Of a DNA stretch of 43,684 nt, positions 13,869-35,090 are shown piece by piece. Made by a program: the position numbers and the translations under genes. The stretch is from the NCBI GenBank assembly GCA_016871155.1, contig VFZO01000020.1, positions 1 through 43,684 on the forward strand, in the 5' to 3' direction. The notes beneath the pieces are model-generated. The model was not told where the DNA came from. It saw only the letters and a list, made by a program, of their open reading frames with translations, and searched no databases. The stretch is from Acidobacteriota bacterium (lineage in GTDB: Bacteria; Acidobacteriota; Terriglobia; Bryobacterales; Bryobacteraceae). The number at the start of each line of letters is the position of its first letter. Within the stretch, counting starts at the first letter, position 1.

Positions 13869-16229
13869 TTACTCACGCGCCTTCAGAACTTCTACAAGGT
13901 CCAGCTTTCGAATTTGCCTCGCCACGGTGGCGGCGGAAAGCAGCGTCGCTACGACGATGGTCAATGCAGCGTAGCCATACGTGGACGGCTCCACTACCAC
14001 GGGCACCCGGAACAACTCGGTTTGGGCGGTCCCCGCCATTACGCCAGCCAGGCCACGGCCCATCAGGAGCCCGAGCGGAATCGCCGCGAAGATCAGCACG
14101 GCCAGCTCACCCAAAAGGATGTAGGTCACCTCGCCGCGTGTGTAGCCCAGCACGCGAAGACTGGCCAACTCCCGGCCGCGCTCGCTCAGGGCGATGCGCA
14201 CCGTGTTGTAGACCACGCCAACCGCGATGGTCGCGGCCAGCAGCGTGTTAAACAGAGCAAACGTCAACATTTGCGCCGCAAGCGTCTCGTAGAAACTTTC
14301 CAGCACGCGTAGCCGAGAGGCCGAGCCAGCCACCGCCGGCATTGCTTTCAGTTTGGCGTAGAGCGAATCCACCTCGCGGGCATTGGCCGCCAGATAGGCG
14401 CCGGTGATCGCGCTGCCCTCGCGCATGAAGCGGTTGAGCGCATCGCGGCGCATGTACCCCGTGACTCCGATGAACTCCGACACGACACCCGTCAGCGGCA
14501 CTTGCCGCACCGCGCGCGAGCCGTCCAACAGTTCTACCGTCAGGAGATCCCCCACCCGGATACCCAGCATTTTCGCCAGATGATCGGTGAGCAACACGCC
14601 TTCGCCTGGCACCGGCACCTCGCCGAGTTGCGTGTCCAGGAGACGGCGCAAATAGCCTTTGTCTTCGATACCTTGAATCGCCGCCCGGTAGGTTCGTTGC
14701 TCAAAGCGAAGCCGCGCCGGTACTGTCCGCACCGGCTCCGCGTGGGTAACACCGGGAAGACTCATCATCGAATACAGAGCCCGCTCCGACACAGGGCCGA
14801 TGAAGGTTACCGACACATCTTCAATCTGCGCGCGGCGCAATTGGGCGAAAACCATGTAGTCCACCGCATCGCCCCAGAAGCCGCCGAGGATCAGGATCGA
14901 GGTCGACAACGCCACACCCAACACGCTGAGCGCCGACTTTACCGGCCGGCGTTCGATGTTGCGGAATATCATTCGCGTCGGCTGCGACAGCCAGCGTCCC
15001 AGTCCCAGCGCTTCGACGATACTCACGCGGTAGGAGGCGGGGGGCGCGGGCTGCATGGCCACCGCGGGCGACTCCGCCGCCGACTTGAAAACCGCGAAGA
15101 GCGTGCCCGTCAAACCGGCGGCGATTCCCACCAGCGCGGAGACAAGGTACACTTCGCCGCGAATCGCGTAGTGCAGATACGGGAACTTATAAACGTCCAT
15201 GTACAGGCTCGACAGGCCGCTGCCCAGCCACGCTCCGAGGGCCAGCCCCATCGCATAACCGGTAACGACAATCACTAGTGTGAGCTTCACAAAGTGAACG
15301 GCCATCTGCGCCGTTGTATATCCGAACGCCTTTAGAATCGCGATCTGGCCGCGCTGCGTGGCCATGAGCCGTCCAATGACGACATTCAGCAAAAATGCGG
15401 CGACCGATAGAAAGATCGCCGGGAACATCGTCGACATGACGGTCAGTTGCTTGAATTCTTCACTGAGGTAGCGATGCGAGACCTGGTCCTTCCGGCCGTA
15501 CGCGCCCAGCCCGCCATAGGGCCGCAGGATGTGGTCCAGTGCGTCGATGGCGTCCTCGACGCGTTTTCCTGGCTCGAGCGACGCCGCCACTTCGTTGAAC
15601 GCGCCGGTCATGTTGTAGGCGCCTTCGAGCGCGTCGCGATTCATCCAGAGAACGCAGTAGGTTTTGAAGTCCGGGACAATCGATCCCGGCGCCAGTTGAT
15701 AAATGAACTCGGGTGTCGACACGACGCCGACCACCATCACCCGCTTTCTACGGCCGTTGATTGTGACTTCCATTGGAAAGTCCGGCGTCAGCTTGTGCGC
15801 CACCGCGAATCCATCACTGACCGCGACCTCGCTATCGCGGCCGGGTTCGGGCAGGCGGCCCGTGCGGAGCCGAAGCCTGTTGAACTGTGCCTCGCCGCGG
15901 GGAAGAGAGACGATCTGGCCGGACACCGGCTGGTCAAACGAGGCAAGAAAAATGTTCGCGGGCGCAACGATTCTCGGCTCCACCTCCACGACGCCGGGAA
16001 TCGCAGCCACGCGGCCCGCCACACTCTCCGGCGCGCGTTTCAATCCAGAGAAGAGGTGCGGGAACCGGTATTCGGCGTAGAGCATGATTTGCGTGCGCTG
16101 CAGGGAATCCAGCGTGCTGGCCGCCATGACATAGGTAGCGATGCCGGCCGCGAGCACGCAGGAGATCGCAAACACCTGGCCCTTCAGCTGCCAAAGATCT
16201 CGAAACAGCTTGCGGTCCAGAGCGCGCAT
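13869..16229 (-). CDS. FtsX/LolE-type ABC transporter permease (DevC-like, two FtsX domains)
   Basis: A 786-residue integral membrane protein with an N-terminal helix (about 15-37), a MacB-like periplasmic domain, a three-helix FtsX block (about 265-375), a central region with another helix (near 435-455), a second periplasmic domain, and a final FtsX block (about 655-780, with YNTVRIALSERGRELASLRVLGYTR in two parts). This 4+4-like arrangement belongs to type VII/MacB-superfamily exporters that drive efflux or lipoprotein/glycolipid transfer by mechanotransmission rather than alternating access. The start overlaps the ATPase stop by 1 nt (TAATG) and the adaptor follows, so the transporter is complete apart from an outer-membrane channel. 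Confidence 0.92.
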   Translation of the reverse strand: MRALDRKLFRDLWQLKGQVFAISCVLAAGIATYVMAASTLDSLQRTQIMLYAEYRFPHLFSGLKRAPESVAGRVAAIPGVVEVEPRIVAPANIFLASFDQPVSGQIVSLPRGEAQFNRLRLRTGRLPEPGRDSEVAVSDGFAVAHKLTPDFPMEVTINGRRKRVMVVGVVSTPEFIYQLAPGSIVPDFKTYCVLWMNRDALEGAYNMTGAFNEVAASLEPGKRVEDAIDALDHILRPYGGLGAYGRKDQVSHRYLSEEFKQLTVMSTMFPAIFLSVAAFLLNVVIGRLMATQRGQIAILKAFGYTTAQMAVHFVKLTLVIVVTGYAMGLALGAWLGSGLSSLYMDVYKFPYLHYAIRGEVYLVSALVGIAAGLTGTLFAVFKSAAESPAVAMQPAPPASYRVSIVEALGLGRWLSQPTRMIFRNIERRPVKSALSVLGVALSTSILILGGFWGDAVDYMVFAQLRRAQIEDVSVTFIGPVSERALYSMMSLPGVTHAEPVRTVPARLRFEQRTYRAAIQGIEDKGYLRRLLDTQLGEVPVPGEGVLLTDHLAKMLGIRVGDLLTVELLDGSRAVRQVPLTGVVSEFIGVTGYMRRDALNRFMREGSAITGAYLAANAREVDSLYAKLKAMPAVAGSASRLRVLESFYETLAAQMLTFALFNTLLAATIAVGVVYNTVRIALSERGRELASLRVLGYTRGEVTYILLGELAVLIFAAIPLGLLMGRGLAGVMAGTAQTELFRVPVVVEPSTYGYAALTIVVATLLSAATVARQIRKLDLVEVLKARE

Positions 16230-16936
16230 TACCAGTGCAACTCGCGAGGATTCCGGCGTTCGGCGTTGATATCGATCGACGAGACATGGCCATTCGACAT
16301 ATGGACCACCCGGTCCGCCATGCGAGCGATGTCGGCGTTGTGCGTAATCACCGCGGTTGTTGCGCCGAGCTCCCGGTTGACCCTGTCGATCGCTTCTAGG
16401 ACGATCACTCCGGTCTCGGAGTCTAAGGCGCCCGTTGGCTCGTCGCAGAGCAGCACGGACGGCCGCTTAGCGATGGCGCGCGCGATGGCGACGCGCTGCT
16501 GTTGTCCGCCCGAGAGCTGAGAAGGGAAGTGGTACATGCGATCACCAAGGCCGACAAGGTCCAGTGCCTCGGCCGGTTTCATGGGCTGATCCGCAATCTC
16601 AGTCACCGCCGCGACGTTCTCGATGGCGGTCAAGCTCGGAATCAGGTTGTAGAACTGAAAAACGAACCCGACGTGAGCACGCCGGTAGCGCGTGAGTTCC
16701 TTGTCGTTAGCGGCCGTAATGTCGACGTCCCGATACATAACGCTGCCGGCCGATGCGCGATCGAGTCCTCCCAGAATATTCAGCAGCGTGGATTTTCCGC
16801 TACCCGATGGGCCCAGCAGGACCACCATCTCACCACTAAAAAGCTGGAGGTCCACGCCGCGAAGTGCGTGGACCTGCACCTCGCCCATGTCATAGACCTT
16901 CGTCACGCCGTGCGCGGAAAATACGGAAGCGGACAC
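16229..16936 (-). CDS. ABC transporter ATP-binding protein (LolD/MacB/DevA type)
   Basis: A 235-residue ATPase with Walker [11 protein letters not shown]-loop [13 protein letters not shown], signature LSGGQQQR, Walker [13 protein letters not shown] and H-loop VITHN. The FxFYNLIPxLT Q-loop sequence is typical of FtsX-permease partners. It energises the permease encoded next, with which it overlaps by one base. The start is a GTG (16936); upstream lie AGAG and, further back, TACACT, which could be a -10 hexamer for a nearly leaderless transcript, but this is weak. First gene of the five-gene unit ATPase-permease-adaptor-SDR-ThuA. Confidence 0.95.
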
Positions 16937-17364: not shown

Positions 17365-18582
17365 TCAAAGTCCTCGCATATGGAATCCGCCGTCCACATT
17401 GAGGACCTGCCCGGTCGAATAGTCGAGTAGTCCATCGGCCACCGCACGGACGGCCTTGGCGACATCCGAGCCTTCGCCCATGCGCGGCTGCGGCAGGAGC
17501 CCGCCAGCGATTCGCTCTTCGTACAGTTGCTCCACAGCCGCGATCATGTCCGTGCGGATGACGCCCGGCCGGATTTCAAAAACCTGTACGTTACTCTTGG
17601 CCAACCGTTGCGCGTACAGCGAAACCGACATGCTCAGCGCGGCCTTGGCCATGCAATACTCCGCCCGCGACGTACTTGCCGCGTACGCCGAAATCGAAGT
17701 GATGAACACGATGCGCCCGCTGCCTTGCTCGGCCATCCACTGTCCCGCCGCCTGCGTCAGAAAATGCGGACCCTTCAGGTTCGTTCCGATTAGTTCGTCG
17801 AAACTCTCTTCGCTCGCGTCCAACACGTCGCGCCGCTCGCGCTGCGGCATACCGGCGTTGTTCACCAGCAGGTCCAACCGCCCGTACTCTCTGCGCACGA
17901 AGTCCAGCAAATCCCGGCGGTCGTCCCGGCTGGCAATCTCGCATTGGAATACGGCGGCTCTGGTCTCGGCGGCCAGCGTCTCCGCCAAGTCTTTCCGGCC
18001 GCGGTAGGTCCCCACAACCTGGTGCGTCTTGGCCAACTCCACGGCGATCGCCCTGCCGATTCCCCGGCTGGCACCCGTCACCAGCGCCACGGGCCGCGAC
18101 GCCGCCAACTCCGCATCGATCCCGGCCGTGATCTCCTCAAGCGTAAACACCTCGATGAAGGCGCGCCCGTTCACGAACACGGTCGGCGTTTTCACTACGC
18201 CCCGCGCGACGCCCTCCCGGACATCCGCGTCGACCCGCGCGGCGAGATCCTCCCGCTCCAGCCCGGCCAATACTTGAGCCGCGTCGACTCCGGCTTCCGC
18301 CGCGTACTCGCGAACCCGGTCCGGCAGCGTTTCGAGCGTCGTCGTCTTGATCCGGTTCAGAATGTACGTTCGCCAGCCGGCCGCCAGGCCACAGGCCACC
18401 TCGTCGAAACGCCTCGCCACGATGGCCGCCGGCTTTGCCCAAACATGCTTTCCCAGAGGAAAATCGCGATGAACGAATCGCACGCGGCCCCGGTATTTCG
18501 GGACTAGCGAGCCGTTCAACATCGCGTCGAATCGTGTGCAATCGCCGCACTGCAGGTTCGTATAAACGGTGAGGGTGACCAT
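17365..18582 (-). CDS. Fusion protein: DsbA-like thioredoxin domain plus short-chain dehydrogenase
   Basis: One uninterrupted 405-residue frame. Residues 1-160 form a DsbA/thioredoxin_4-type domain: strand VTLTVYTNLQ, redox motif C12-G-D-C15, an RDFPLGKH segment, a helical insertion, and the cis-proline loop KTPTVFVNG (Pro133). Residues 163-405 form a complete classical SDR: TGASRGIG (169-176), NNAG (241-244), Ser296/298 and Y309-CMA-K313, ending in a normal VDGGF tail. There is no signal peptide, so the Cys pair would sit in the reducing cytosol. The SDR half resembles 3-oxoacyl-ACP/glucose-dehydrogenase-like reductases. I do not know this domain pairing as an established family. A pathway is not evident; one possibility is thiol-disulfide control of the reductase. 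It starts 30 nt after a GNAT gene, probably one operon. Confidence 0.88.
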   Translation of the reverse strand: MVTLTVYTNLQCGDCTRFDAMLNGSLVPKYRGRVRFVHRDFPLGKHVWAKPAAIVARRFDEVACGLAAGWRTYILNRIKTTTLETLPDRVREYAAEAGVDAAQVLAGLEREDLAARVDADVREGVARGVVKTPTVFVNGRAFIEVFTLEEITAGIDAELAASRPVALVTGASRGIGRAIAVELAKTHQVVGTYRGRKDLAETLAAETRAAVFQCEIASRDDRRDLLDFVRREYGRLDLLVNNAGMPQRERRDVLDASEESFDELIGTNLKGPHFLTQAAGQWMAEQGSGRIVFITSISAYAASTSRAEYCMAKAALSMSVSLYAQRLAKSNVQVFEIRPGVIRTDMIAAVEQLYEERIAGGLLPQPRMGEGSDVAKAVRAVADGLLDYSTGQVLNVDGGFHMRGL

Positions 18583-18612: not shown

Positions 18613-19386
18613 TTATTCCTTCCGCCATTTCGTACGCGTATACGCCACCAGAAATCCGTTTCGTTCCGCGTTGCGTTGGGAGGCGCTGCCCGGCGCGGTG
18701 CCCATAACGGCCATTTCGCATCCCTGGGCCCACGCATGGCGGAGCCGGGCCGCCAGCAGCGCGTTTTGCGCTCCGCGTCCACGCGCGGCTGGCACCGTGG
18801 ATGCTCCCGCCATGTGCGCCGCCGGACCGTGAATCGACAGCGACGCCGCGGCCACGGCATGGCCATCCAGGTAGGCCAGCCACGCCGTCGAGCCCGCCCG
18901 CCGCGCCGACACCCTGCCTAGATCCAGAAAGAAGTCCTTGTACTCCGGTGCCTCGGACATCCAGCCGTCCGCCGATACGCGCGCCCACGTGTCGTAGTCC
19001 TTCGGCCCGGCGATGCCAACGGTAATAGCCCCGGTCCACTCCGGCGTTTCGGAGCGCGGCCGGTACAGGACCGTCGATAGCTCCACCGGCGTGTAGCCGC
19101 GCCGGGCTAGTAGCGCGTAGGTGCCGACGCCGGCCAACGGAGAGACCTCCAGGTCCACCGCTGCGGCGCGAACCTCGAAGAAGCGCTCGATTCGCTCAAC
19201 GATTGCCGCGGAGGCCGGTTCGAACAGTCCAAGCCCAAACGCCTGTGTGAGCGGCGAACCGGGGCCATCGAACAGCGCCCATGCGCCACCGATGCGTTCC
19301 CAACACGCTTCTCCGCCGCGGGCGTCGATGAAGGCCGCCGCGTTTTCCGCCTCCGCTCGCTCCAACTTCTGTGCCATTTCGTTCAT
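18613..19386 (-). CDS. GNAT-family N-acetyltransferase
   Basis: A 257-residue protein. The C-terminal half has the GNAT core, with an acetyl-CoA-binding motif A of the form V-P-x-x-R-G-R-G-A-Q (STVPAARGRGAQNALLAARL) and a closing MGTAPGSASQRNAERNGF segment typical of the family end. The N-terminal half is a divergent domain that may be a degenerate second GNAT fold (FGLGLFEPAS, then LEVSPLAGVGTYALLARRGYTPVE, which looks like a motif-B region). The substrate is unknown. ATG 19386 is preceded not by a Shine-Dalgarno but by a strong hairpin 10 bases upstream. Probably transcribed with the DsbA-SDR fusion. Confidence 0.85.
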   Translation of the reverse strand: MNEMAQKLERAEAENAAAFIDARGGEACWERIGGAWALFDGPGSPLTQAFGLGLFEPASAAIVERIERFFEVRAAAVDLEVSPLAGVGTYALLARRGYTPVELSTVLYRPRSETPEWTGAITVGIAGPKDYDTWARVSADGWMSEAPEYKDFFLDLGRVSARRAGSTAWLAYLDGHAVAAASLSIHGPAAHMAGASTVPAARGRGAQNALLAARLRHAWAQGCEMAVMGTAPGSASQRNAERNGFLVAYTRTKWRKE

Positions 19387-19843: not shown

Positions 19844-20440
19844 CTACGCGCTGGCGTACTCGTCGTCCAAGCACGAGATAATCAGGAGTTCGCAGCCGGT
19901 CTCGGAGGTGATGTCGCCGTGCAGTGTCCCGGGCTCTGCTTTCTCATAGTCGCCGGCGAATAGATGCATGACCGGGTTCTCGCCCTGACGCACGTCGCCG
20001 CTCAGAACCAGACACTGTTCCGTGCCCAGGTGGCGATGCGACGGATACCTCGAGCCCGGCTCCAGCCGCAGAATCGACGTCAACATCCGTGTTTCCCGGT
20101 CGACGTGGAGCGTCTTGACCGTGACGCCGTCGTGTCCGGTGGGCTTCCATCGGCCGCCACCAAGTTTGAGGACCGATACGCCCGGTTCCGGTTGCAAGAA
20201 CCCGCCGGGTCCGACGGCTTTCACGGCCGCCATCAGCCGCTCCTTGACCGCCGGCCTAGGCCGCGCGTCGAATAGCTCCGTTATCTTCTCGGCGGCCGAT
20301 AGCGCTGACTCGGTCTCGCTGAGCGCCGTAGGGTTGCCCGCCGCCAGCAGACGTTCGAACTCGTCGCGCTCGGCGCCGTCCAGCGCGCCCATCGCGTAGA
20401 GTACTGCTTGCTCGCGAATCCGTTCAGGCGTGCTGGCCAT
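19844..20440 (-). CDS. Cupin-type anti-sigma factor (ChrR-like) lacking the zinc HxxxCxxC motif
   Basis: A 198-residue soluble protein. The N-terminal 60 residues (AVLYAMGALDGAERDEFERLL) match the helical anti-sigma domain of RskA/ChrR-type proteins but lack the Zn-binding His/Cys set. Residues 95-195 form a ChrR-type cupin with metal-ligand candidates His135 and His137 (SHRHLGTEQ), Glu141 and His174 (GTLHGD). The ATG lies within the end of the ECF sigma gene (17-bp overlap), the usual sign of a sigma/anti-sigma pair. In ChrR the cupin senses singlet oxygen or hydroperoxides and releases sigma; whether that holds here is inference. The protein would remain cytosolic. Confidence 0.85.
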   Translation of the reverse strand: MASTPERIREQAVLYAMGALDGAERDEFERLLAAGNPTALSETESALSAAEKITELFDARPRPAVKERLMAAVKAVGPGGFLQPEPGVSVLKLGGGRWKPTGHDGVTVKTLHVDRETRMLTSILRLEPGSRYPSHRHLGTEQCLVLSGDVRQGENPVMHLFAGDYEKAEPGTLHGDITSETGCELLIISCLDDEYASA

Positions 20441-21041
20441 GGTCCAATGCCTCCCTCAATTTAAGCATGCCCAGGCGAATTCTGGTCTTAACCGTGCCAA
20501 GCGGGACTCCAGTCTGTTCGGCGACCTCCGAATGGCTAAGCCCACCCCAGAACGAAAGCTGGATCATCCGGCGCTGCTCGGCCGGCAGCGCTTCCAGCGC
20601 CGTCCGCACCCGCACCTGGTCCTGCCGGGCGGCCACCGTGGACTCCGGCCCCGCGTCCGAGGAAACAGGTTCAAACCCTTCGGGCATCTCGCCGGTCATT
20701 CGGCGGCGCCGGGTTTGCAACGACCGCCAGCGGTCCAGCGCCCGGCTGCGCGCCATCATCGCGACCCACGCCGGTACCGCACAGCGGGCCGGATCGTAGC
20801 TCGACGCCAGTTTCCAGACCTGCTGGAAAACGTCCAACGTGATTTCTTCCGCCTCGTCAGGGTCCCTTAGAATTCGCAGGGCTATGGTGTGCACGTAACG
20901 GCTCGCTTCGTCGTAAAATTCGGACAACGCCCGGGAGTCGCCCCCAGCGATAGACAGCACGAGTTGCGACCACCGATCCGGCCCGGACACGGATTCCCTA
21001 TTGCCGTGTACGCCCGCCGCTCCCTGGCTGGATTCACCCAT
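20424..21041 (-). CDS. ECF-family RNA polymerase sigma factor
   Basis: A 205-residue protein with sigma region 2 (about residues 38-105: FYDEASRYVHTIALRILRDPDEAEEITLDVFQQVWK, with the conserved D-A-E-E-x-T-x-D-V-F core) and region 4 (about 145-200: ALEALPAEQRRMIQLSFWGGLSHSEVAEQTG then VPLGTVKTRIRLGMLKLRE), the latter being the -35-binding helix-turn-helix. The linker is arginine-rich and acidic. It is paired with the overlapping cupin anti-sigma gene. It starts 24 nt after the cytochrome b gene, so its basal expression may depend on the Rieske/cytochrome b transcript. Its closest resemblance is to SigK/RpoE-like groups that have cupin or RskA anti-sigmas. Confidence 0.95.
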   Translation of the reverse strand: MGESSQGAAGVHGNRESVSGPDRWSQLVLSIAGGDSRALSEFYDEASRYVHTIALRILRDPDEAEEITLDVFQQVWKLASSYDPARCAVPAWVAMMARSRALDRWRSLQTRRRRMTGEMPEGFEPVSSDAGPESTVAARQDQVRVRTALEALPAEQRRMIQLSFWGGLSHSEVAEQTGVPLGTVKTRIRLGMLKLREALDHGQHA

Positions 21042-21065
21042 CTGAAAATCTTTTTCAATGGGGCG

Positions 21066-22637
21066 CTAATCCTTCAGCGTCCCCATGTATGCAAGCATAC
21101 CGCTCATTTCGGCGGGAGTGAACTTGTACGCGGGCATGGCCGTTCCCGGTGCGAACTTCTGCGGGTCGAGGAAGTGGCCTTCCATCCAGGCGCGGTCGCG
21201 CCGCGCCGCCACTCCGTTCAGCGGGGGACCGTTCCGCGCAACGGTTCCGTTCACCGAATGGCAAACGCCGCAATTGTACTTCATGAACACCTGGGCCCCT
21301 GCCACCGCATCGTGAGGCGCCGTCCCCAGGGAGCCGACGCTTTCGTCATCCAGCTTGCGCATCAAATTCGCAAGCTGGCGCCATTGGAGGTCGCGCAGGC
21401 CGGACTTGCCGCCCTGCTGCCGGAAGTGACCCACCAGCCAATCGCGATCCTCTCGCACGGCGATATCCGCCAGGTTCGGACCGGCTTTATTGTCTCCAGG
21501 CGTTGACCCATGGCACTGCCAGCATTGGGCCTGCCGGAAGCTGCCCACGGCCGCCATCTCTTCCGGGATAAAATTCTGCCAAGCTTCGCGGTTCGGCGTC
21601 GAACGTACGGCCGCCGCCGTTAGCCCCGCCCAGCCCACCGCGGCGAGCAGTACAATTCCGATTGCCAGCGTCCGCTGGCGCAGCTTTTCGGCCGCGCCCC
21701 GGTCGATAAATGGAGTCAGGAACAGCAGGCCGACGGCGATTCCGGGCAGTACCATTGATCCCACGATCTCAAGCGGTCCTTCGAAGAATTTCAGGATTTG
21801 GAAAAGGAACAGGAAGTACCACTCGGGGCGAGGAATGTAGGTTGTGTCGGTGGGATCCGCGATCTTTCCGAGGGGCACCCGGACCAGCAGTGCCATCAGG
21901 AAAAGAATCGTGAACATAATGAACACGGCCACGGTGTCTTTGAAGACCTGGCCGGGGTAGAACTTTACGGCCGGGGCGGTCTCGACCGGCGCTGGCGCCA
22001 CGCCGTGCTTGCGGACCAGGAAGACATGGATGGCAATGAGAATGAGCGTCACCGGCGGCAGCAACAAGACGTGCGCGGCGTAGAATCGCGCGAAGGTCTG
22101 CACACCGATCTGCCCGTTGTCGCTGCCCATCAGGTGCAGCAGGTACGGCCCCGCCACCGGAGCCTTGGCCGTGATCTGGGTCGTCACAACCGTGCCCCAA
22201 TAGGCCCGGTTATCCCAGGGCAGCAGGTAGCCCGTCAGTCCAAAGCCCAGGGTGATCAGTAACAGCACCACGCCCATCATCCATGTGGCCTCGCGTGGCT
22301 TTTTATAGGCTCCCCACAGAAACACCTGGATCATATGCAAAACCACCACCACAATCATCATGCTGGCGCCCCAGTGGTGCAGACCTCGGATCAGCCGCCC
22401 GCCGGTCAGCTCCGTCAGGATGAAGCGAAGGCTGGCGTGCGCGTCTCCAGGCGTTGGGGCGTAGTTCAGCGATAGCAGTATTCCCGTCACCGCCTGAATC
22501 AGAAAACAGAACATCGCGACGCTGCCGAACACTTGGTGCCAGCCGCTCGACGCCGGAATATCCTCATACAAAAAATGCTTAATGGCCGACTCAATGCCGG
22601 TTCGTTGCTCGAGCCAATCGATAACGGATCGCAGCAT
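21066..22637 (-). CDS. Cytochrome b fused to two cytochrome c domains (quinol:cytochrome c reductase)
   Basis: A 523-residue protein. Residues 1-310 are cytochrome b with paired heme ligands H87/H101 and H189/H204 (the second pair spaced by 14, the b6 style), GYLLPWDNRAYWGT and the Qo-site P271-EWY motif. At least nine hydrophobic helices are present, including one at about 323-342 after the b domain. The C-terminal 165 residues carry two heme-c sites, C372-WQCH and C456-GVCH. The c domains would face the periplasm after the last helix. One polypeptide thus holds the b hemes plus a diheme electron carrier, making a separate cytochrome c1 unnecessary. It starts 2 nt after the Rieske gene. Confidence 0.93.
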   Translation of the reverse strand: MLRSVIDWLEQRTGIESAIKHFLYEDIPASSGWHQVFGSVAMFCFLIQAVTGILLSLNYAPTPGDAHASLRFILTELTGGRLIRGLHHWGASMMIVVVVLHMIQVFLWGAYKKPREATWMMGVVLLLITLGFGLTGYLLPWDNRAYWGTVVTTQITAKAPVAGPYLLHLMGSDNGQIGVQTFARFYAAHVLLLPPVTLILIAIHVFLVRKHGVAPAPVETAPAVKFYPGQVFKDTVAVFIMFTILFLMALLVRVPLGKIADPTDTTYIPRPEWYFLFLFQILKFFEGPLEIVGSMVLPGIAVGLLFLTPFIDRGAAEKLRQRTLAIGIVLLAAVGWAGLTAAAVRSTPNREAWQNFIPEEMAAVGSFRQAQCWQCHGSTPGDNKAGPNLADIAVREDRDWLVGHFRQQGGKSGLRDLQWRQLANLMRKLDDESVGSLGTAPHDAVAGAQVFMKYNCGVCHSVNGTVARNGPPLNGVAARRDRAWMEGHFLDPQKFAPGTAMPAYKFTPAEMSGMLAYMGTLKD

Positions 22638-22639
22638 GA

Positions 22640-23140
22640 CTAGCTCTCCTTCGACTCGCGTACTTCGCCCAACAGCACTTTGCCTTCGGCGATTTTGACG
22701 TCAAAGCGGTCCAAAGGCCGCGGCGCCGGTCCGCCTAGTACCTTGCCATCGGTGCTGAATGCCGACGTGTGGCACGGGCAGACGAAGTGCTTTTCGTTCG
22801 TGCTCCAGCTCACGGCGCAGCCTAAATGCGTGCAGACTGGGGAAAACGCAACCACCTGCTGGTCGCCCGTTCGAATCACCAGCGCGGCCGCTTTCTCCGT
22901 CACGAATTTCCAGCCGTCTCTGCGCTCCCGGTTGAAAATGATCTGCTCGGGTTGATTCATCGGCAGGTTTGTCAGGTCGGCGGCTTCGATCCATACCTCT
23001 TTCCGGCGGGCTTTTCCGGGCAGCAGCAGATAGCCGGCGGCGGGCAATCCCAGTGCGGCGGTTATCGCCCCCATTAACCCAAAGATCGCCCCAACCAGGA
23101 AGCCTCTTCTCAACTCTTGTTCGTTTTGCAATTCAGGCAT
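22640..23140 (-). CDS. Rieske iron-sulfur subunit of the cytochrome bc complex
   Basis: A 166-residue protein with a Tat-like N-terminal anchor (LRRGFLVGAIFGLMGAI) and a Rieske domain with ligands C103-T-H105-L-G-C108 and C121-P-C123-H124; the second and third of the cysteines form the usual disulfide. The ATG at 23140 is chosen over one eight codons upstream because GTGGAG precedes it and the Tat motif then sits near the N-terminus. It passes electrons from quinol to the c hemes of the adjacent fusion protein. Cytochrome b follows after 2 nt. The GPAPRPLDRF segment after the second motif is typical. Confidence 0.95.
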   Translation of the reverse strand: MPELQNEQELRRGFLVGAIFGLMGAITAALGLPAAGYLLLPGKARRKEVWIEAADLTNLPMNQPEQIIFNRERRDGWKFVTEKAAALVIRTGDQQVVAFSPVCTHLGCAVSWSTNEKHFVCPCHTSAFSTDGKVLGGPAPRPLDRFDVKIAEGKVLLGEVRESKES

Positions 23141-23178
23141 GTGACTCCACTCTAATCGACGCATCCGGGATGCGGGTG

Positions 23179-24510
23179 TTAAATCAAGGCTCTCCGCAGA
23201 CGATCGGTAAGCGTTTTCTCACTTGTTAATCGATTCTCGTTTTCGGCCGGGTCGGACCGCAAATTGTACAGGGCGTTTTCGTTGTGGAACCCCTCCACGT
23301 ACTTGTACTGTCCGTCCCAAACCAGACGCCACTCTTCCAACGCGGAGTACAGCAGCTCCCGGTGCCTGCGAGCCCTGCCGTTTAAGACGTTGCGGAGCGA
23401 CTTTGCCTCCATGGAGGGCGTCACACCGGCGCCCGCGTAGTCGAGAAAGGTAGCCCCCACGTCGATCAGACTTGCCAAGGCATCCGTCCTGGCGCCTTTC
23501 CCCGCGTCCAAGCCGGCGACGATGAGCGGTATGCCCGCCGACGCCTGATAGGGCACGTGCTTCGCCCAGCGGTTGTGGTCGCCAAGCATCTCCCCGTGAT
23601 CGGACGAGAATACCACCATGGTGTTCTCCAACTCTCCCCTTCGGTCCACTTCCGCGAGTAGTTCACCAACCAGCCGGTCGATATTTTCACACATCGCCGC
23701 GTAGTTTTGCCGGATCGCGATGTGGGTCTTGGCGTCATATTCGGTGTTGCGGTTCGGCTGCGGATACTCGCGCCCGCGTGCCTTACTCTCCATGGCGCCC
23801 GTGATGTCCATCGGGTTATGCGGCCCGGTAAAGTTAACAACTAAATGCCAGGGCTTGCCGTGCGGCGCCCGGCCCAACAGTGCCTTGGCGTTCTCGGCGA
23901 TCCAGTTGTCGCAATAGGCGTCGTCGGGAAGGGGAGTCGGATAGGTAGCCGCATACCTTTTCCGGCCGCGCATGTCCTTGATGTGTACCGCAGCCAGGCT
24001 TCGCCTATGCAGCATCGCCATATAAGGATCGGTGGGGCGCGCCTCGCCCGCTCGAACGGCGTCCATCTTTCCGGCGTTATCGATGGCGTCGCTGAACCCC
24101 CAGTCCCCGGTCAGCCGCTTCCCGTCCAGACCCCAGTCCAGCGTCTGTTTGTGCAGATCGATTTTGCCGCAACCCATCACGTAATACCCGGCGGCACGCA
24201 GCTTCTGATAGTACGTGGGCAGGGTCAAGGGGTAGTTGTCTTTGTTCGACGCCACGCCGCAATTCTTGTACTCTCGTCCCGAAGCCAGGCACGCCCTCGA
24301 CGGCGCGCACAACGGCGAGGCGCACAGAACGCGGGAGAATTCCGTGCCCCGGCGGGCCAGTCCCGCGATATTCGGCAGCCGCAGCGGGACCGACGGATTC
24401 GAAGGCAGCCAATCCGGGCGCCACTGGTCGGGCAGGAGGAACAGGAAATTTGGCTGCCGTCGCGACGCCTGAACAAAAGGCGCCGAGAGCATCGCCCGGC
24501 GCGAGGTCAT
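23179..24510 (-). CDS. Exported sulfatase (arylsulfatase/N-sulfatase family)
   Basis: A 443-residue hydrolase with a Tat-like N-terminus (TSRRAMLSAPF), then NFLFLLPDQ (metal-binding aspartate) and the formylglycine motif C68-APSR-ACLASG. Further conserved blocks: YVMGCGKIDLHKQ, NFTGPHNPMDITG and VVFSSDHGEMLGDH with the second metal site. It would hydrolyse sulfate esters of polysaccharides after conversion of the Cys by a maturase that is not in this window. ATG 24510 is chosen because the longer frame would run into the BON gene and lacks a signal. It lies 28 nt after the BON gene and 38 nt before the Rieske gene. Confidence 0.9.
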   Translation of the reverse strand: MTSRRAMLSAPFVQASRRQPNFLFLLPDQWRPDWLPSNPSVPLRLPNIAGLARRGTEFSRVLCASPLCAPSRACLASGREYKNCGVASNKDNYPLTLPTYYQKLRAAGYYVMGCGKIDLHKQTLDWGLDGKRLTGDWGFSDAIDNAGKMDAVRAGEARPTDPYMAMLHRRSLAAVHIKDMRGRKRYAATYPTPLPDDAYCDNWIAENAKALLGRAPHGKPWHLVVNFTGPHNPMDITGAMESKARGREYPQPNRNTEYDAKTHIAIRQNYAAMCENIDRLVGELLAEVDRRGELENTMVVFSSDHGEMLGDHNRWAKHVPYQASAGIPLIVAGLDAGKGARTDALASLIDVGATFLDYAGAGVTPSMEAKSLRNVLNGRARRHRELLYSALEEWRLVWDGQYKYVEGFHNENALYNLRSDPAENENRLTSEKTLTDRLRRALI

Positions 24511-24538
24511 CCGCCCAGTATAGAGCGTTCCTTCCGGC

Positions 24539-25060
24539 CTACACACGTCCGCGTTCGACCCGCAGATTGTTGGTGACGGAAAACACGCCGGACACACCGT
24601 TCGCCATCAAGTTCGCGACGTTCCGGTCAATCTCGTTGGCCACAACGCCTTCCAGAGTCACGCCGCCGTTTTTCACCAGAATCCGTATGGATGGATTGGC
24701 GCCCAGCGCGTACCGGTTTAACCCGTTAGCCCCATATACGGCCCTGGCGACGGCCAGCCGCAGGCGATCATCGTAGGGCGACAACGGCAGGACTTCAATC
24801 TTGTTCACAATGTTTCGGACACCCTCCAGCCGCGCCACCCGGTTCGCCGCGTCGCTTTTGAGCGTTGGCCGGATAACATGACCCGAAAGGTACAGCGTCT
24901 CACCGTCCAGGCGGTAGCCGAGATTGTCGAAAACCGACAGGAATGGCAGCGCAAGCAGCTCGGTGCGAACCTTCTTCTGGATTCGGTCCTCCGGGTTCGC
25001 GGCGAATGCCATGCCGGCGATCGCCAGCGTCAAGATTGTGGATTTCAGTGTGCGTTTCAT
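24539..25060 (-). CDS. Exported BON-domain protein
   Basis: A 173-residue protein from ATG 25060, which has GGAG six bases upstream and gives a clean signal peptide (MKRTLKSTILTLAIAGMAFA). Two BON repeats follow: about residues 22-85 (RIQKKVRTELLALPFL...GETLYLSGHVI...) and about 95-165 (LRLAVARAVYG...ILVKNGGVTLEGVV...), each with the G-x-V-x-L-x-G-x-V core. BON domains (as in OsmY) bind phospholipid or the outer membrane and are linked to envelope stress. An upstream ATG in the same frame would add 29 unlikely residues. It may be cotranscribed with the sulfatase. Confidence 0.92.
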   Translation of the reverse strand: MKRTLKSTILTLAIAGMAFAANPEDRIQKKVRTELLALPFLSVFDNLGYRLDGETLYLSGHVIRPTLKSDAANRVARLEGVRNIVNKIEVLPLSPYDDRLRLAVARAVYGANGLNRYALGANPSIRILVKNGGVTLEGVVANEIDRNVANLMANGVSGVFSVTNNLRVERGRV

Positions 25061-25175
25061 TTTCGTCTCCTGCCCATAAGACGCGGAAACGGCCGGCGCG
25101 GATTTCACGGGAAACAGGCATTTACAAAACTTTGACAACGCCCGCAAATACGCGTGCGATCAAGACCTGAGCGAC

Positions 25176-26402
25176 TCACCGCATCCGGCCATATTTCTTC
25201 ATCGCTTCCACAACCCGCGGCCCTGGCAGCCCAAATACGCGCAGCCCATCCACTCCCGTCGTGACCCGTGGCGCCGCCAGCATGGCATTCACAACCGCTT
25301 CTTCCGTCGCGTCGATTGTCGCCCGGAAGACCGGGTCGATCCAGTCGTTCGGCACCATCTCCAACTTCGCCATCTGCTCCGCGCCGCCCGCCCCGGCATT
25401 CGCGGTCGAGAACGCCAGGAATAAGTCACCCGACCCGTTCCCCGCCCAACTGCCGAGCTTTCCCAAGCCCATGCCAACTCGCCGGGCAATCCGTTTCAAT
25501 TGATGTGCCAGCAGCGGCGCGTCCGTCGCCACCACCACGATAATGGACCCTCGCCCGGCGTCCGCGGCCTCCCGCGCCGTATCCCGGCTCCCCGCCTGCG
25601 CGGATGTGCACGCCGGCACCCAACGAAGCCACGGCCGTGTTTGCGGCAGCGTCGTGCACGAGCGGAGATCGGTAATCTCCCGTCCCACAGGCACACCCAG
25701 GATATGTAGATCGCCCCCATAGTTGCACTGCACGAGCACGCCCACGGTGTACGACTTGCCCCCCACGTGAATCACCCGCGACGAAGTCCCGATGCCCCCT
25801 TTGAATCCGTTGCATTTCATCCCTGTTCCGCCGCCCACCGCCCCTTCTTCCACTGCACCAGTTTTGGCTGCGTCCAGCGCCGCCCAGGCATGTTCCCTTG
25901 TCACATGCTGACCATTGGCGTCGTTCATAGAGTCGAACGTCTCGGCAACAATCGGATAGGTAAAGACGAACTCCCGGCCCCGCGCGATCTGCCAGTGAAT
26001 GGCTGCATCCCGCACAACCCCCACGCTGTGCGTCCCCGTCAACAGAATTGGACCTTCCAGGAATCCGGATTCCTCGATCCAATTCACCCCCGTCATGTCT
26101 CCGTTGCCGTTTTGATTGAAGGTCGCCGCCATCACGAAATCCCAGTTCCCGCGCGGCCGCGGCAGTATCGCCGTCACCCCCGTTCGCACCGGTCCCTGCC
26201 CCGGAATTAACCGGCCCTCGCCACTGACCACCGTCGTATGGCCGACGGCAACCCCGGCAACGTCAGTGATCGCGTTTTGCGGCCCCGGCGTGCCGTCAAA
26301 CGGGATTCCCAGTGCGCGCCCGCGAGGGTTCTGCGCCCACAAGCAACCACTGACGCCGGCAAGCAAGAGCGTCGTTCCGGCAAGCAACTGAAAGGTCGGC
26401 AT
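25176..26402 (-). CDS. P1-family self-processing aminopeptidase (DmpA/BapA type), exported
   Basis: A 408-residue N-terminal-nucleophile-type hydrolase. An N-terminal signal (to about residue 23, with GC at 19-20 giving a possible lipobox VSGC) is followed by the DmpA domain: NAITDVAGVAVGHTT, VEEGAVGGGTGMKCNGFKGG, then VQCNYGGDLHILGVPVG, and the self-cleavage site AG-NG323|S324-GDLFLAFSTAN, where Ser324 becomes the nucleophile of the beta chain. Members are D- or L-aminopeptidases or beta-peptidyl aminopeptidases. The start is ATG 26402; a TATATT eight bases upstream could be a -10 element for a leaderless message. A lipoprotein or periplasmic location is inferred. It is divergent from the DinB gene. 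Confidence 0.92.
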   Translation of the reverse strand: MPTFQLLAGTTLLLAGVSGCLWAQNPRGRALGIPFDGTPGPQNAITDVAGVAVGHTTVVSGEGRLIPGQGPVRTGVTAILPRPRGNWDFVMAATFNQNGNGDMTGVNWIEESGFLEGPILLTGTHSVGVVRDAAIHWQIARGREFVFTYPIVAETFDSMNDANGQHVTREHAWAALDAAKTGAVEEGAVGGGTGMKCNGFKGGIGTSSRVIHVGGKSYTVGVLVQCNYGGDLHILGVPVGREITDLRSCTTLPQTRPWLRWVPACTSAQAGSRDTAREAADAGRGSIIVVVATDAPLLAHQLKRIARRVGMGLGKLGSWAGNGSGDLFLAFSTANAGAGGAEQMAKLEMVPNDWIDPVFRATIDATEEAVVNAMLAAPRVTTGVDGLRVFGLPGPRVVEAMKKYGRMR

Positions 26403-26471
26403 GAGTGCAGAATATACTACGCCCGCCGGCCCTACACTGCATCGCTTCGGCTACAATCTCGATTGGAATAT
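26403..26471. promoter_or_regulatory. Short divergent promoter interval between P1 peptidase and DinB-like gene
   Basis: On the plus strand TACAAT (26452-26457) lies 14 bases before the DinB ATG. On the minus strand TATATT (complement of 26411-26416) lies 8 bases before the peptidase ATG. Both resemble -10 hexamers, but I find no matching -35 boxes, so this is tentative. Confidence 0.3.
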
Positions 26472-26969
26472 ATGGTACTCACCACGCAGGAACTCATTCA
26501 ATCGCTTCGGAACGAGATCCGGATTCTCGTCCACCTTTGCGGCAAGGCCGCGCCCGAGATGCTCGATTACCGTCCGACACCGGCGCAGCGCAGCTTGATC
26601 GAACTCGTCCGCTACTTGACCATCATGGGACCGGTATTGGTGCCCTCGGTCAAGGCCGGCTCGTTCCTCGTCGACCAGTGGAACGCAGCCGAGACCGCTT
26701 CCAAGTCTTTGGATTTCGACGCTGCTGTCAAGAGTCTTGCCTCCCAGGCAGAATTCTATGCCTCGGCCCTGTCCGCCTTCACCGTCGAGGAAATGCGCGG
26801 TGAGATCGAGTTGTTCGGAACAAAAGCCAGCCGCGGTCAGCATTTGGTCAGCATGGTACTGTGCGGCCACGCCGCCTACCGCACACAGTTGTTCTGTTAC
26901 CTGAAGGCCGCGGGCCGCCCGGAGTTGAACACGATGAATCTTTGGGCGGGCGTCGACGGGGCGATGTAG
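26472..26969 (+). CDS. DinB-like four-helix-bundle protein
   Basis: A 165-residue soluble helical protein. The pattern (RNEIRILVHL near the N-terminus, EMLDYRPTPAQRSLIELVRYL, then GHAAYRTQLFCYLKAAG near the end) matches the DinB/DUF664-type fold. The usual triad of metal-binding histidines seems incomplete: a His at about 17 and one in GHAAYR are visible, a third is not obvious. The ATG at 26472 is used; the frame is open further 5' but that part is antisense to the peptidase gene and lacks a ribosome binding site. Members include thiol-S-transferases that use bacillithiol or mycothiol. A link to the bshC gene far downstream is speculative. Confidence 0.7.
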   Translation: MVLTTQELIQSLRNEIRILVHLCGKAAPEMLDYRPTPAQRSLIELVRYLTIMGPVLVPSVKAGSFLVDQWNAAETASKSLDFDAAVKSLASQAEFYASALSAFTVEEMRGEIELFGTKASRGQHLVSMVLCGHAAYRTQLFCYLKAAGRPELNTMNLWAGVDGAM

Positions 26970-26973
26970 CGGC

Positions 26974-28254
26974 CTAGAACCGGTCGCCGGTCTTCGAGAG
27001 CCACTGTTTCATCAGGCGGCGATGTTCCTCGAGCACCGGTCCGCCCTCCGGCCTGCGCGCCAGATTATAGGTCTCGCCCGGATCGGTCTCCAGGTCGAAG
27101 AGCTGCTCCGGCCGTGCGCCCGAATTGAACCGGACGTACTTATAGCGTTTCGTCCGCAGCATCCGGCCCTCGCGTTCGGCGATTTCGTAGCGCAGTTGGC
27201 TGGTCACGAAGAGCCGTTCCGCCGGCGCCAGAAGATCGATGCCGCGCATATCCTCCGGCGCAGGCAAGGCGGCAAGGGCGCACAGGGTCGGAACGACATC
27301 GGTGAGCGTGGCCAATCGCCGGTCCACCCGACGCGCCATTCCCGGTCCCGAAACGATCAGCGGTACCCGCAGCGATTCTTCGTAGAACGAGGCCTTTTGC
27401 GCCCAGCGATGCGCGCCCATGCCTTCGCCATGATCGCTGGCGAATAGGACGTGGGTGTTTGCCGGATCTATCGCAGCCAGCACCTTCCCGATCTCCGCGT
27501 CCACCTGTTCCACCATCCGGTAGTAATCGTGATGGTACTGGCGCATGTCATCTGGCTTCCAGTTCGAAGCGATGCCAACGGCTTTCGACATCAGGTCGTA
27601 ACCCGCGGTGCGGTGATACTGAATGGCCTCGGGCTCATCGGGATCCACCGCCATGTTGCCCGGCGTGTGCGGATACCGCTCGACCGCGGCGTGACTGCCT
27701 GCGCCCGGATGCTGCCGGATCCAGTCGCAGATATCGTGCGGATTCATGAAGCTCGCCACCAGCAGAAACGGACCCTTCGGGTTGCCGCGCAGCCACTCCG
27801 CACAGGCGTTCGAAAGCGGAGCGTCCATATCCTTGCCCAGCGCGGAGCCGCCAGCGATCTTGGTGAATCCCGTCATGCCGTCGAATGCCTTCGGCAAATG
27901 CCACTTGCCGCCATAGGCCGTGTTGTATCCGGCGGCCCGGAAAATTTCCCCCATCGACGCCATACCCGGCGCGATCGGTCCGCCATTGCCCATCACCCCC
28001 GTTTCGTGCGGCATGCGGCCAGTGAAGATCGACGAGCGCGACGGTGAGCAAACCGGATATGGACAGATGGCATTGGAAAACGTCACACCGCGCGCGGCGA
28101 TGGAATCCATGGCCGGCGTGCGCAGCCACGGATTCCCCGCACCGCTCCAAGCGTTGTGCGTCTGCTGGTCCGTAAGGATCACGACGATGTTCGGCCGCGC
28201 CGCCTGCATGGAGGTTAGCGCCCCGGCCACAAGTTCTCTGCGAGTTAGACTCAC
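26974..28254 (-). CDS. Sulfatase (formylglycine-dependent), Tat-like signal
   Basis: A 426-residue sulfatase. The GTG at 28254 overlaps the stop of the Gfo/Idh gene as GTGA, and the resulting N-terminus (SLTRRELVAGAL) is Tat-like; the open frame extends much further upstream, but only antisense to, or inside, the neighbouring gene. Motifs: NIVVILTDQQ (metal Asp), C69-SPSR-SSIFTGRM (Cys to formylglycine), YGGKWHLPK and LFASDHGEGMGAH. The C-terminus has the RYKYVRFNSG and LFDLETDPGETYNLA blocks of choline-sulfatase/heparan-sulfatase-like groups. With the Gfo/Idh protein it forms a two-gene unit for sulfated or modified sugars. It converges on the DinB-like gene. Confidence 0.93.
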   Translation of the reverse strand: MSLTRRELVAGALTSMQAARPNIVVILTDQQTHNAWSGAGNPWLRTPAMDSIAARGVTFSNAICPYPVCSPSRSSIFTGRMPHETGVMGNGGPIAPGMASMGEIFRAAGYNTAYGGKWHLPKAFDGMTGFTKIAGGSALGKDMDAPLSNACAEWLRGNPKGPFLLVASFMNPHDICDWIRQHPGAGSHAAVERYPHTPGNMAVDPDEPEAIQYHRTAGYDLMSKAVGIASNWKPDDMRQYHHDYYRMVEQVDAEIGKVLAAIDPANTHVLFASDHGEGMGAHRWAQKASFYEESLRVPLIVSGPGMARRVDRRLATLTDVVPTLCALAALPAPEDMRGIDLLAPAERLFVTSQLRYEIAEREGRMLRTKRYKYVRFNSGARPEQLFDLETDPGETYNLARRPEGGPVLEEHRRLMKQWLSKTGDRF

Positions 28255-29399
28255 AGTTCCACGTTTCGCGCGCTGTGATTCCACACCGCGCGCCGGCCAT
28301 GTTTCAGCGACAAGTTGGCGAGTTGCACCACAAGCGCCGCCTGGAAGCCCAGCTCCATCGGCGCCGTTGGCCGTTTCCGCGTTCGCACGCACTCCAAGAA
28401 ATTGCGGACATGTAGCTGGGTGGCGAATCCGAAGCCGCGAGCGGATTGCCGCTCCAGCAGGACCTCGTCCTCTTTTCCGGCCGCATGGACTTTGCAGTTT
28501 TCCCGGCCTATATCCATGCGCGCCTTGTCGCCATCCAACTGGTTCAATTGATCGTTGCGCGATTGATAGCGCATCGCGGCGTAATTGATTGAAAAGACGC
28601 CGATGAAGTCTTCCGGATACTCGGCCGTCACTACCACCGACTCCGGCGTATTCACGTCCGCGCGATGCGGCCGGTTCGCCGACGCAGTCACTGCTCTCGG
28701 ATACGACGCGTTCATCAGCATGTGGATGCCGTCGTAGACGTGTGCGCCCTGGTCGGCGACGATCCCGCCGGCGTACTCCGAATAGAACCGCCAGTTCCGG
28801 AACCGGCCGGCGTCGAATGCATGTTTGGCCGCCGGACCCTGCCACTGCTCCCAGTCGAGCTTGCCCTCCAGCTTCGGCGCACCGGCGTTCAGGTAGTTGT
28901 TCAGCCACCAACTCCGGATCATCCGCACGCTGCCTAGCGTGCCGGCTGCCACGATTTCGCGCGCCTGAATATAGAGGTCGTAGGAACGGCGCTGCATGCC
29001 CACCTGGACAATGCGGTTCGATCTCCGCTCCGCTTCGACAAGCTCCACGCCCTGCTCAGGAGTCTGACACAGCGGCTTTTCGACGTACACGTCCTTGCCG
29101 GCGGCCATCGCGTCCAGCACCATCCGATGGTGCCAATGCTCCGGCGTCGCGATCAGCACGGCGTCGATCGCCGGGTCGTCCAGCAGTTTGCGATAGTCGC
29201 GAACGGCCTGCGCGCCCTTCGCCTTGGATAGCGCGTTTTCCAGATTGGGTTCGTAGACGTCGCAAATGGCGGTCACCTGCACGTTGGGATCTTTCTGGAA
29301 TTCGGTCATCACATAGGTGCCGCGTCCACCTGCGCCGATGACGCCGAGGCGCACGCGATTCATCGCTTGAAGAGAGAGTAAGAACGAACGGCGGAGCAT
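28251..29399 (-). CDS. Gfo/Idh/MocA-family oxidoreductase with Tat-like N-terminus
   Basis: About 382 residues. The Rossmann motif GVIGAGGRG is at about 19-27, ICDVYEPN ends the second strand, the Gfo/Idh signature is E107-K-P109, and a C-terminal beta-sheet domain carries a GIVADQGAHVYDGIHML segment with the conserved His. The N-terminus LRRSFLLSL resembles a Tat signal, as in many exported Gfo/Idh proteins that carry NAD(P) tightly bound. The start is uncertain: ATG 29399, ATG 29411 or TTG 29420 are all in frame and none has a Shine-Dalgarno. The sulfatase follows with a 4-nt overlap. The substrate is probably a pyranose or inositol derivative. Confidence 0.92.
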   Translation of the reverse strand: MLRRSFLLSLQAMNRVRLGVIGAGGRGTYVMTEFQKDPNVQVTAICDVYEPNLENALSKAKGAQAVRDYRKLLDDPAIDAVLIATPEHWHHRMVLDAMAAGKDVYVEKPLCQTPEQGVELVEAERRSNRIVQVGMQRRSYDLYIQAREIVAAGTLGSVRMIRSWWLNNYLNAGAPKLEGKLDWEQWQGPAAKHAFDAGRFRNWRFYSEYAGGIVADQGAHVYDGIHMLMNASYPRAVTASANRPHRADVNTPESVVVTAEYPEDFIGVFSINYAAMRYQSRNDQLNQLDGDKARMDIGRENCKVHAAGKEDEVLLERQSARGFGFATQLHVRNFLECVRTRKRPTAPMELGFQAALVVQLANLSLKHGRRAVWNHSARNVEL

Positions 29400-35017: not shown

Positions 35018-35090
35018 TGTGCAATTAGGATATGGCACTTTGTCCGTTGAAGCAATCAATCCAGAGCCCGGTATCAGCGGCGGAGGACCG

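Follow-up and report, generated by a model that had tools for sequence, protein, structure and literature searches.

A DsbA-like thioredoxin domain fused to a short-chain dehydrogenase/reductase in one genus of the Bryobacteraceae

The fused gene and its surroundings

The window, i.e., the whole stretch of 43,684 nucleotides that was analyzed (contig VFZO01000020.1 of an Acidobacteriota bacterium of the family Bryobacteraceae), carries on its minus strand a gene that joins a DsbA-like thioredoxin (Trx) domain to a short-chain dehydrogenase/reductase (SDR). The frame runs from an ATG at 18582 to a stop codon at 17365-17367 and has no internal stops. A preliminary description of this DNA had given exactly these coordinates for a single open frame and had left the strand unstated. 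The features of the locus are the following:

17365..18582, minus strand: fused gene, DsbA-like thioredoxin domain plus short-chain dehydrogenase/reductase, 405 aa (open frame, Pfam, NCBIfam)
18112..18582, minus strand: N-terminal DsbA-like domain (Pfam Thioredoxin_4, residues 2-157), with C12-G-D-C15, cis-Pro P133 and an extra cysteine, C64
18091..18111, minus strand: junction (residues 158-164), at the last Trx helix (148-161) and the first SDR strand (165-168)
17368..18090, minus strand: SDR domain (residues 165-405; NCBIfam PRK12745), with TGASRGIG, NNAG, N268, S296, Y309, C310 and K313
18613..19386, minus strand: GNAT acetyltransferase gene, 30 bases upstream of the fused gene
16229..16936, minus strand: ABC transporter ATPase gene, downstream of the fused gene
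13869..16229, minus strand: FtsX/MacB-type permease gene, downstream of the ATPase gene

The N-terminal half matches Thioredoxin_4 (PF13462) with 75.4 bits (cutoff 23.2), while adh_short_C2 (160.3 bits, cutoff 27) and adh_short (146.2 bits, cutoff 26.6) cover residues of about 165-401. The motifs named in the preliminary description are all present, namely CGDC and the cis-Pro loop (P133, within TPT) in the first half, and TGASRGIG (169-176), NNAG (241-244) and YxxxK (Y309, K313) in the second. Its statement that both active sites are kept agrees with the retained catalytic residues and with Pfam scores far above their cutoffs. The first half, with its CxxC and cis-Pro, is a thioredoxin-type domain, whose fold is a prediction from the Pfam match and from the modelled secondary structure. 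It shares CxxC, cis-Pro and a helical insert with the Thioredoxin_4/DsbA-like thiol oxidoreductases, from which it differs by lacking a signal segment, by being joined to an SDR and by the clade-specific residues T8, R58 and C64. A phmmer search of this half against solved structures returned two chance-level matches only, one of them titled DsbA.

The SDR half has the TGxxxGIG, NNAG and Asn-Ser-Tyr-Lys set of the classical SDRs, and TGxSRGIG (169-176), N241-G244, N268, S296, Y309 and K313 are invariant in a 42-row alignment (A4), with A171 nearly so. With 267.9 bits it passes the curated equivalog cutoff (250) of PRK12745 (NF009386), and by the name of that model it would be a 3-ketoacyl-ACP reductase; the MFS_1 and Oxidored_FMN neighbors of its relatives do not seem to point to fatty acid synthesis. 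The SRGIG and YRGR motifs, by a rule that we assume to apply here, make this SDR probably NADPH-using. Among the classical SDRs of the PRK12745 type, the nearest solved chain by sequence is 4da9 (160.6 bits over residues 161-402, phmmer), and by fold 5vn2/4one.

None of the six Pfam matches, nor the best 25 of 225 NCBIfam matches, covers both halves, and no paper listed by a search of the mainly open-access literature dealt with a Trx-SDR pairing. The view that the pairing is not an established family is consistent with this, with the correction that in the wider family the two halves usually occur as adjacent genes. A promoter and terminator scan gave no signal above shuffles.

A first model (mean pLDDT 78.5) was poor in the SDR half. 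In a second, AlphaFold2 model, built from 29 rows, both halves are folded (mean pLDDT 87.2), with a pTM of 0.69 that leaves their relative placement uncertain, and helix 148-161 leads into strand 165-168 in a predicted join that is almost free of linker. Beyond the first residues, the alignment of the six complete fused proteins is free of indels, the join included. The 50 PDB matches listed by Foldseek have SDR-type titles (TMt 0.84-0.92, 238-257 columns) and none of those listed spans both halves; since SDRs filled the matches listed for both models, Foldseek is uninformative on the Trx half.

A common gene order in relatives, to which there are many exceptions, comprises a gene for about 500 aa with no Pfam match, an EcsC-like gene, in some cases a gene here called 0a, the Trx gene, the SDR gene, an MFS transporter gene, an Oxidored_FMN flavoprotein gene and, again in some cases, a gene for 555 aa with no Pfam match. 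The gene upstream of Trx that is called EcsC-like has no Pfam match, and we take it to be such. The 0a product (about 270-300 aa; L083:5089-5889 and equivalents) has a hydrophobic N-terminus and a sub-cutoff Gly-zipper match, and its gene often lies just ahead of a signal-bearing Trx gene; no 0a gene was found at that place in the genus of the window. Of five SDR-only genomes (L196-L200), four (L197-L200) retain the MFS and flavoprotein genes after the SDR. In the window and in genome G014, the fused gene lies away from these two genes and instead ahead of the same ABC/FtsX exporter pair, and the GNAT gene beside the fusion was not seen in the other fused loci that were clustered. All six fused genomes tested have the flavoprotein gene, which in G000, G014 and G004 lies on a different contig; in G004 the separation may be a mere contig break, because the contig of the fused gene ends within the MFS gene (L076).

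Other genes were noted around these loci. Upstream of the fusion and on the same strand, positions 19844-23164 of the window hold an ECF sigma factor and a ChrR-like cupin gene beside cytochrome b/c and Rieske genes, and in G014 (L073) the genes upstream of the fusion lie on the opposite strand. Two sulfatases, a family S58 peptidase and a large M36 fungalysin-type metallopeptidase are encoded at 23179-28911 and 31247-35059 of the window.

Fused and split forms in the genus and beyond

The genus was searched with the full-length protein (E ≤ 1e-50) in 19 genomes, including that of the window. The preliminary description had proposed that two-domain homologues be counted and had considered that they might always be two genes with a stop at the junction. 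This is not the case, as 7 of the 19 genomes have the fusion with no junction stop, 9 have two adjacent genes and 3 were unmatched (G007, 95% complete; G008, 62%; G011, 75%). Six genomes have the complete fusion (that of the window, G014, G015, G003, G005 and G004), so that, among 101 genomes searched, five further members of the genus give an uninterrupted full-length match at 74-78% identity. In the seventh, G002 (L071), the contig ends inside the SDR, yet past the junction, which reads through. Chance is excluded by these five genomes together with the read-through in G002.

That an assembly or sequencing error removed a genuine stop codon might be suspected, since the genus genomes are each in at least 40 contigs and the named records with the fusion are metagenome assemblies. 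Six genomes besides that of the window, however, cross the same junction at 73-78% identity, and six fused loci also occur among named metagenome records (L071-L076), bearing isolate names that belong to several sampling series. Within the reach of these tools, the independent assemblies refute the artefact, which we regard as extremely improbable.

In the nine genus genomes with two genes, the full-length query matches the SDR alone, and a separate Trx gene lies just upstream (in G013 it is cut by the contig end). This short form (L013-L016, L019, L022-L024, L144-L148) is a signal-less Trx of 136 aa whose gene overlaps the SDR start by 4 bases. It has in common with the fusion the genus, the absence of a signal segment and an SDR that is 71-73% identical, and it differs in being encoded by two genes, in having lost about 24 residues of the helical insert and in carrying its third cysteine at position 74, not 64.

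In a sample of 150 genomes of the family, the Trx half matched in 95 (E ≤ 1e-14) and the SDR half in 119 (E ≤ 1e-50). Sixty-six Trx rows were kept (E ≤ 6.3e-22, plus G177), a limit that the short-form Trx genes of the genus do not reach, hence their absence from these rows; the weaker rows left out, with frames of mostly about 310-380 aa, seem to be other DsbA-like paralogues. Fifty of the 66 are split, with the Trx gene immediately 5' of an SDR gene in the same orientation, 13 are non-adjacent and 3 are fused; these three all belong to the genus, and no fusion was found outside it among the 66 rows. Genome G177 was considered as a further independent fusion and rejected because a stop cuts its Trx ahead of the SDR; the SDR behind this broken Trx (L191) has an insert of roughly 15 codons and looks degraded, and the locus is counted among the 50 split ones. 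A sample of 297 genomes of the phylum, which seemingly holds few genomes of the same family and so informs on other families only, gave a match at E ≤ 1e-18 in the genome of the window alone.

A scan of public genomes was run from alignment A1 with two patterns that include the CxxC region and are therefore biased toward CxxC. Its best 80 loci comprised 56 split and adjacent pairs, 5 fusions and 19 loci without a neighboring SDR in the stretch, one of the latter being the cut fused locus L071. All but one of the 80 are titled Acidobacteriota; the exception, L080, is titled Acidimicrobiia (Actinomycetota), its Trx and SDR sit among Acidobacteriota in the trees, and it is possibly a mislabelled or mixed bin. 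The signal-bearing DsbA-like proteins of Bryobacterales encoded beside an SDR gene (e.g., L083) have a Trx core 31-51% identical to that of the fusion, and in the 56 split loci their gene lies directly ahead of the SDR gene, as in the order of the fusion. They differ from it in being proteins of their own, with a hydrophobic N-terminus and a second gene for the SDR; their NCBIfam match to Rcas_1661 (e.g., in L083) is far under the cutoff. The two genes of the split pairs overlap by 4 bases (ATGA type, with starts picked by script) in 28 of the 56, which means that a small mutation suffices for fusion.

A homologue from another family of the order, L008 (G077), has CKDA in place of CxxC at the start of its Trx gene, the second cysteine being lost, and appears unexported. 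L130, L133, L134 and L142 form a branch of Trx proteins whose N-terminal region is longer and contains a DCC or DCCT-like motif, and they have no adjacent SDR in the stretch; the genomes of the first three also have an SDR-linked copy (L077, L123 and L124).

Export signal, trees and constraint

Signals were scored by hydrophobicity and not by a dedicated predictor, as an 11-residue stretch of mean hydropathy ≥1.5 within 55 residues before the Trx core. Identical sequences were counted once, and L010 and L018 (incomplete) and L112 (unread bases) were excluded from this count and from the Trx tree. A signal-like N-terminus occurs in 62 of 70 distinct Trx proteins outside the genus, in none of the seven fused proteins and in none of the seven short split ones of the same genus, of which L016 reaches 1.47 through the open frame upstream. 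In the split genes inspected, the N-termini are mostly hydrophobic and followed by a VEGNPxSPVRV-like linker. The eight proteins below the limit outside the genus are L130, L133 and L134, which by eye have a hydrophobic stretch further upstream, and L008, L106, L115, L121 and L138; L136 is above the limit, yet looks unexported by eye. Signal labels on the Trx tree were set by eye from the N-termini, with the hydropathy count as their numerical version. Outside the genus, the absence of a signal showed no significant link to an adjacent SDR (Fisher p = 0.19).

The DNA ahead of the Trx core is shortened correspondingly. The end of the upstream gene lies 3-27 bases from the core in five fused loci and 7-17 in five short ones, versus 120-185 in 13 of 14 loci without gene 0a (1250 in the remaining one, L136) and 516-1233 in the 23 loci with it. 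In four fused proteins a stop lies 2-10 codons ahead of the core. In the window, an in-frame stop lies 2 codons 5' of the ATG, with 30 bases between the ATG and the preceding gene; a signal peptide has thus not been missed there, and the cytosolic location proposed in the preliminary description is supported. All seven fused proteins lack, as judged by hydrophobicity, the segment ahead of the core that marks DsbA-like proteins for periplasmic export. Because the Trx partner in the wider family is mostly signal-bearing, the cytosolic location is the derived one. The lack of a signal in the fused and short forms, together with their short upstream DNA, suggests that a DsbA-like protein of the exported type moved to the cytosol and underwent a single fusion; a single deletion in the ancestor of the genus would explain both forms.

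In the Trx tree, the fused rows group together as a single clade (7 rows, support 97/98 with bootstraps not settled, stem 0.61). Unexported rows and stems tend to be long (L008 1.94, L121 0.92, L138 0.91, short-clade stem 2.02), and long branches occur among others as well (exported L142 0.94; stem of the L149/L150 pair 2.51). In the SDR tree (114 rows), the fusion is likewise one change, while Trx presence changes at least 20 times among the gathered loci, indicating that the SDR does not depend on a Trx partner.

CxxC and cis-Pro are invariant in 7/7 fused and 7/7 short forms. The third Trx cysteine, C64, and A63 are found in 7/7 fused rows and 0/77 others, R58 in 7/7 and 1/77, and T8 in 6/7, the others having Glu in 76/77. 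A cysteine at position 74 occurs in 7/7 rows of the short clade and 2/63 signal-bearing rows, 20 of which have some third cysteine, most often at position 94. In the SDR half, four sites are common to five of the six fused rows. C310, next to the catalytic Tyr309, is present in 115/115 distinct SDRs and is the sole invariant SDR cysteine, with or without Trx; C214 occurs in 6/6 fused, 47/63 split and 40/46 SDRs without Trx, the last being hand-picked from the SDR matches of the family, so that their share is not a frequency. Across the 115 SDRs, no cysteine covaries with Trx presence.

In fused pairs, dN/dS is below 1 in both halves (Trx 0.08-0.54, SDR 0.04-0.22), with several dS values above 1 and two infinite, and it is higher for Trx than for SDR in 11 of 13 comparable pairs (2 saturated). 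Mean Trx/SDR distances are 0.273/0.173 in 15 fused pairs versus 0.377/0.197 in 97 signal-bearing pairs of the same SDR-distance range, and the mean ratio is 1.68 in fused pairs, 1.56 in all 990 signal-bearing pairs and 3.71 in 21 short-form pairs. At the sequence level, these values show continued constraint on the Trx half after fusion, and the ratios do not establish a tighter one.

Origin and possible role of the thioredoxin half

The explanation that we find best as a whole, and to which we give about an even chance, is that of a genuine two-domain cytosolic protein of single origin, whose Trx half is the thiol-disulfide partner in cis of the SDR. Its ancestor would have been two adjacent, often overlapping genes, one for a DsbA-like thiol oxidoreductase of the exported type, the other for a cytosolic SDR resembling FabG. 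Deletion of the signal-peptide segment in the genus would have brought the upstream gene right up to the Trx core, with loss of the stop between the Trx and SDR genes following later, once and in one clade; we infer this order of events from the forms described above. In the working model, the thioredoxin system of the cell would keep the CGDC domain reduced, and this domain may serve as a built-in thiol-disulfide partner that protects the SDR or senses oxidation nearby, C310 being beside Tyr309, and the almost linker-free join would fix the arrangement of the domains. The SDR half would perform a carbonyl or alcohol redox step; the SDR of relatives is often beside an MFS transporter and an Oxidored_FMN flavoprotein. 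Gating of the SDR by the redox state of the Trx half is possible. The more specific proposal that signal deletion, a third cysteine and fusion turned an exported disulfide-exchange enzyme into a cytosolic thiol switch on an NADPH-type dehydrogenase is tentative, and we hold it to be rather doubtful.

A strong rival holds that overlapping genes passively lost a stop, which put two unrelated cytosolic activities on one polypeptide, and that the Trx half serves substrates of its own and not the SDR. The overlap in half of the split pairs, the frequent changes of Trx presence on the SDR tree, the lack of an SDR cysteine that follows Trx and the excess of SDR (119 of 150 family genomes) over fused or adjacent Trx (53 rows, the short form being missed at the threshold) all favor it, and it has a realistic, if less than even, chance of being right. 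Against it, CxxC has stayed invariant after relocation and fusion, a third cysteine is fixed in the fused clade, and the join lacks any indel in the six complete fused proteins; the partner in cis is the reading we favor. The Trx half might instead be a structural or chaperone add-on, i.e., an oligomer interface or a folding aid, with incidental redox chemistry. The nearly linker-free passage from helix 148-161 to strand 165-168 would suit such a role, as would G077, outside the genus, which retains just the first cysteine of CxxC, but the invariance of both cysteines and the cis-Pro in all fused and short forms makes it unlikely.

The preliminary description had also raised the reduction of the disulfide by nearby NADPH, and this suggestion finds no support. 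If SDR-bound NADPH directly reduced the Trx disulfide, the protein would be a one-chain thioredoxin reductase system, for which proximity alone speaks. The six Pfam matches include no flavin or FAD-binding pyridine nucleotide-disulfide reductase domain such as defines thioredoxin reductases, and no SDR cysteine follows Trx presence. To our knowledge, flavin-free hydride transfer from nicotinamide to a disulfide is no established SDR reaction, and we consider this role highly improbable.

What is new here is the loss of the signal in the Trx of this genus relative to signal-bearing relatives, with matching shortened upstream DNA. In our judgement, the stages through which an exported protein turns into a cytosolic fusion domain can rarely be compared directly; related genomes here contain signal-bearing split, signal-less split and signal-less fused forms, which makes the order of events both readable and testable. 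Were the thiol-switch proposal true, this would be a natural example of a secreted enzyme taken over as a regulatory domain inside the cell. Furthermore, if the Trx half regulates the SDR, a thiol module would be tied to a dehydrogenase in a little-studied group of bacteria, which may give a lead on the function of the gene neighborhood.
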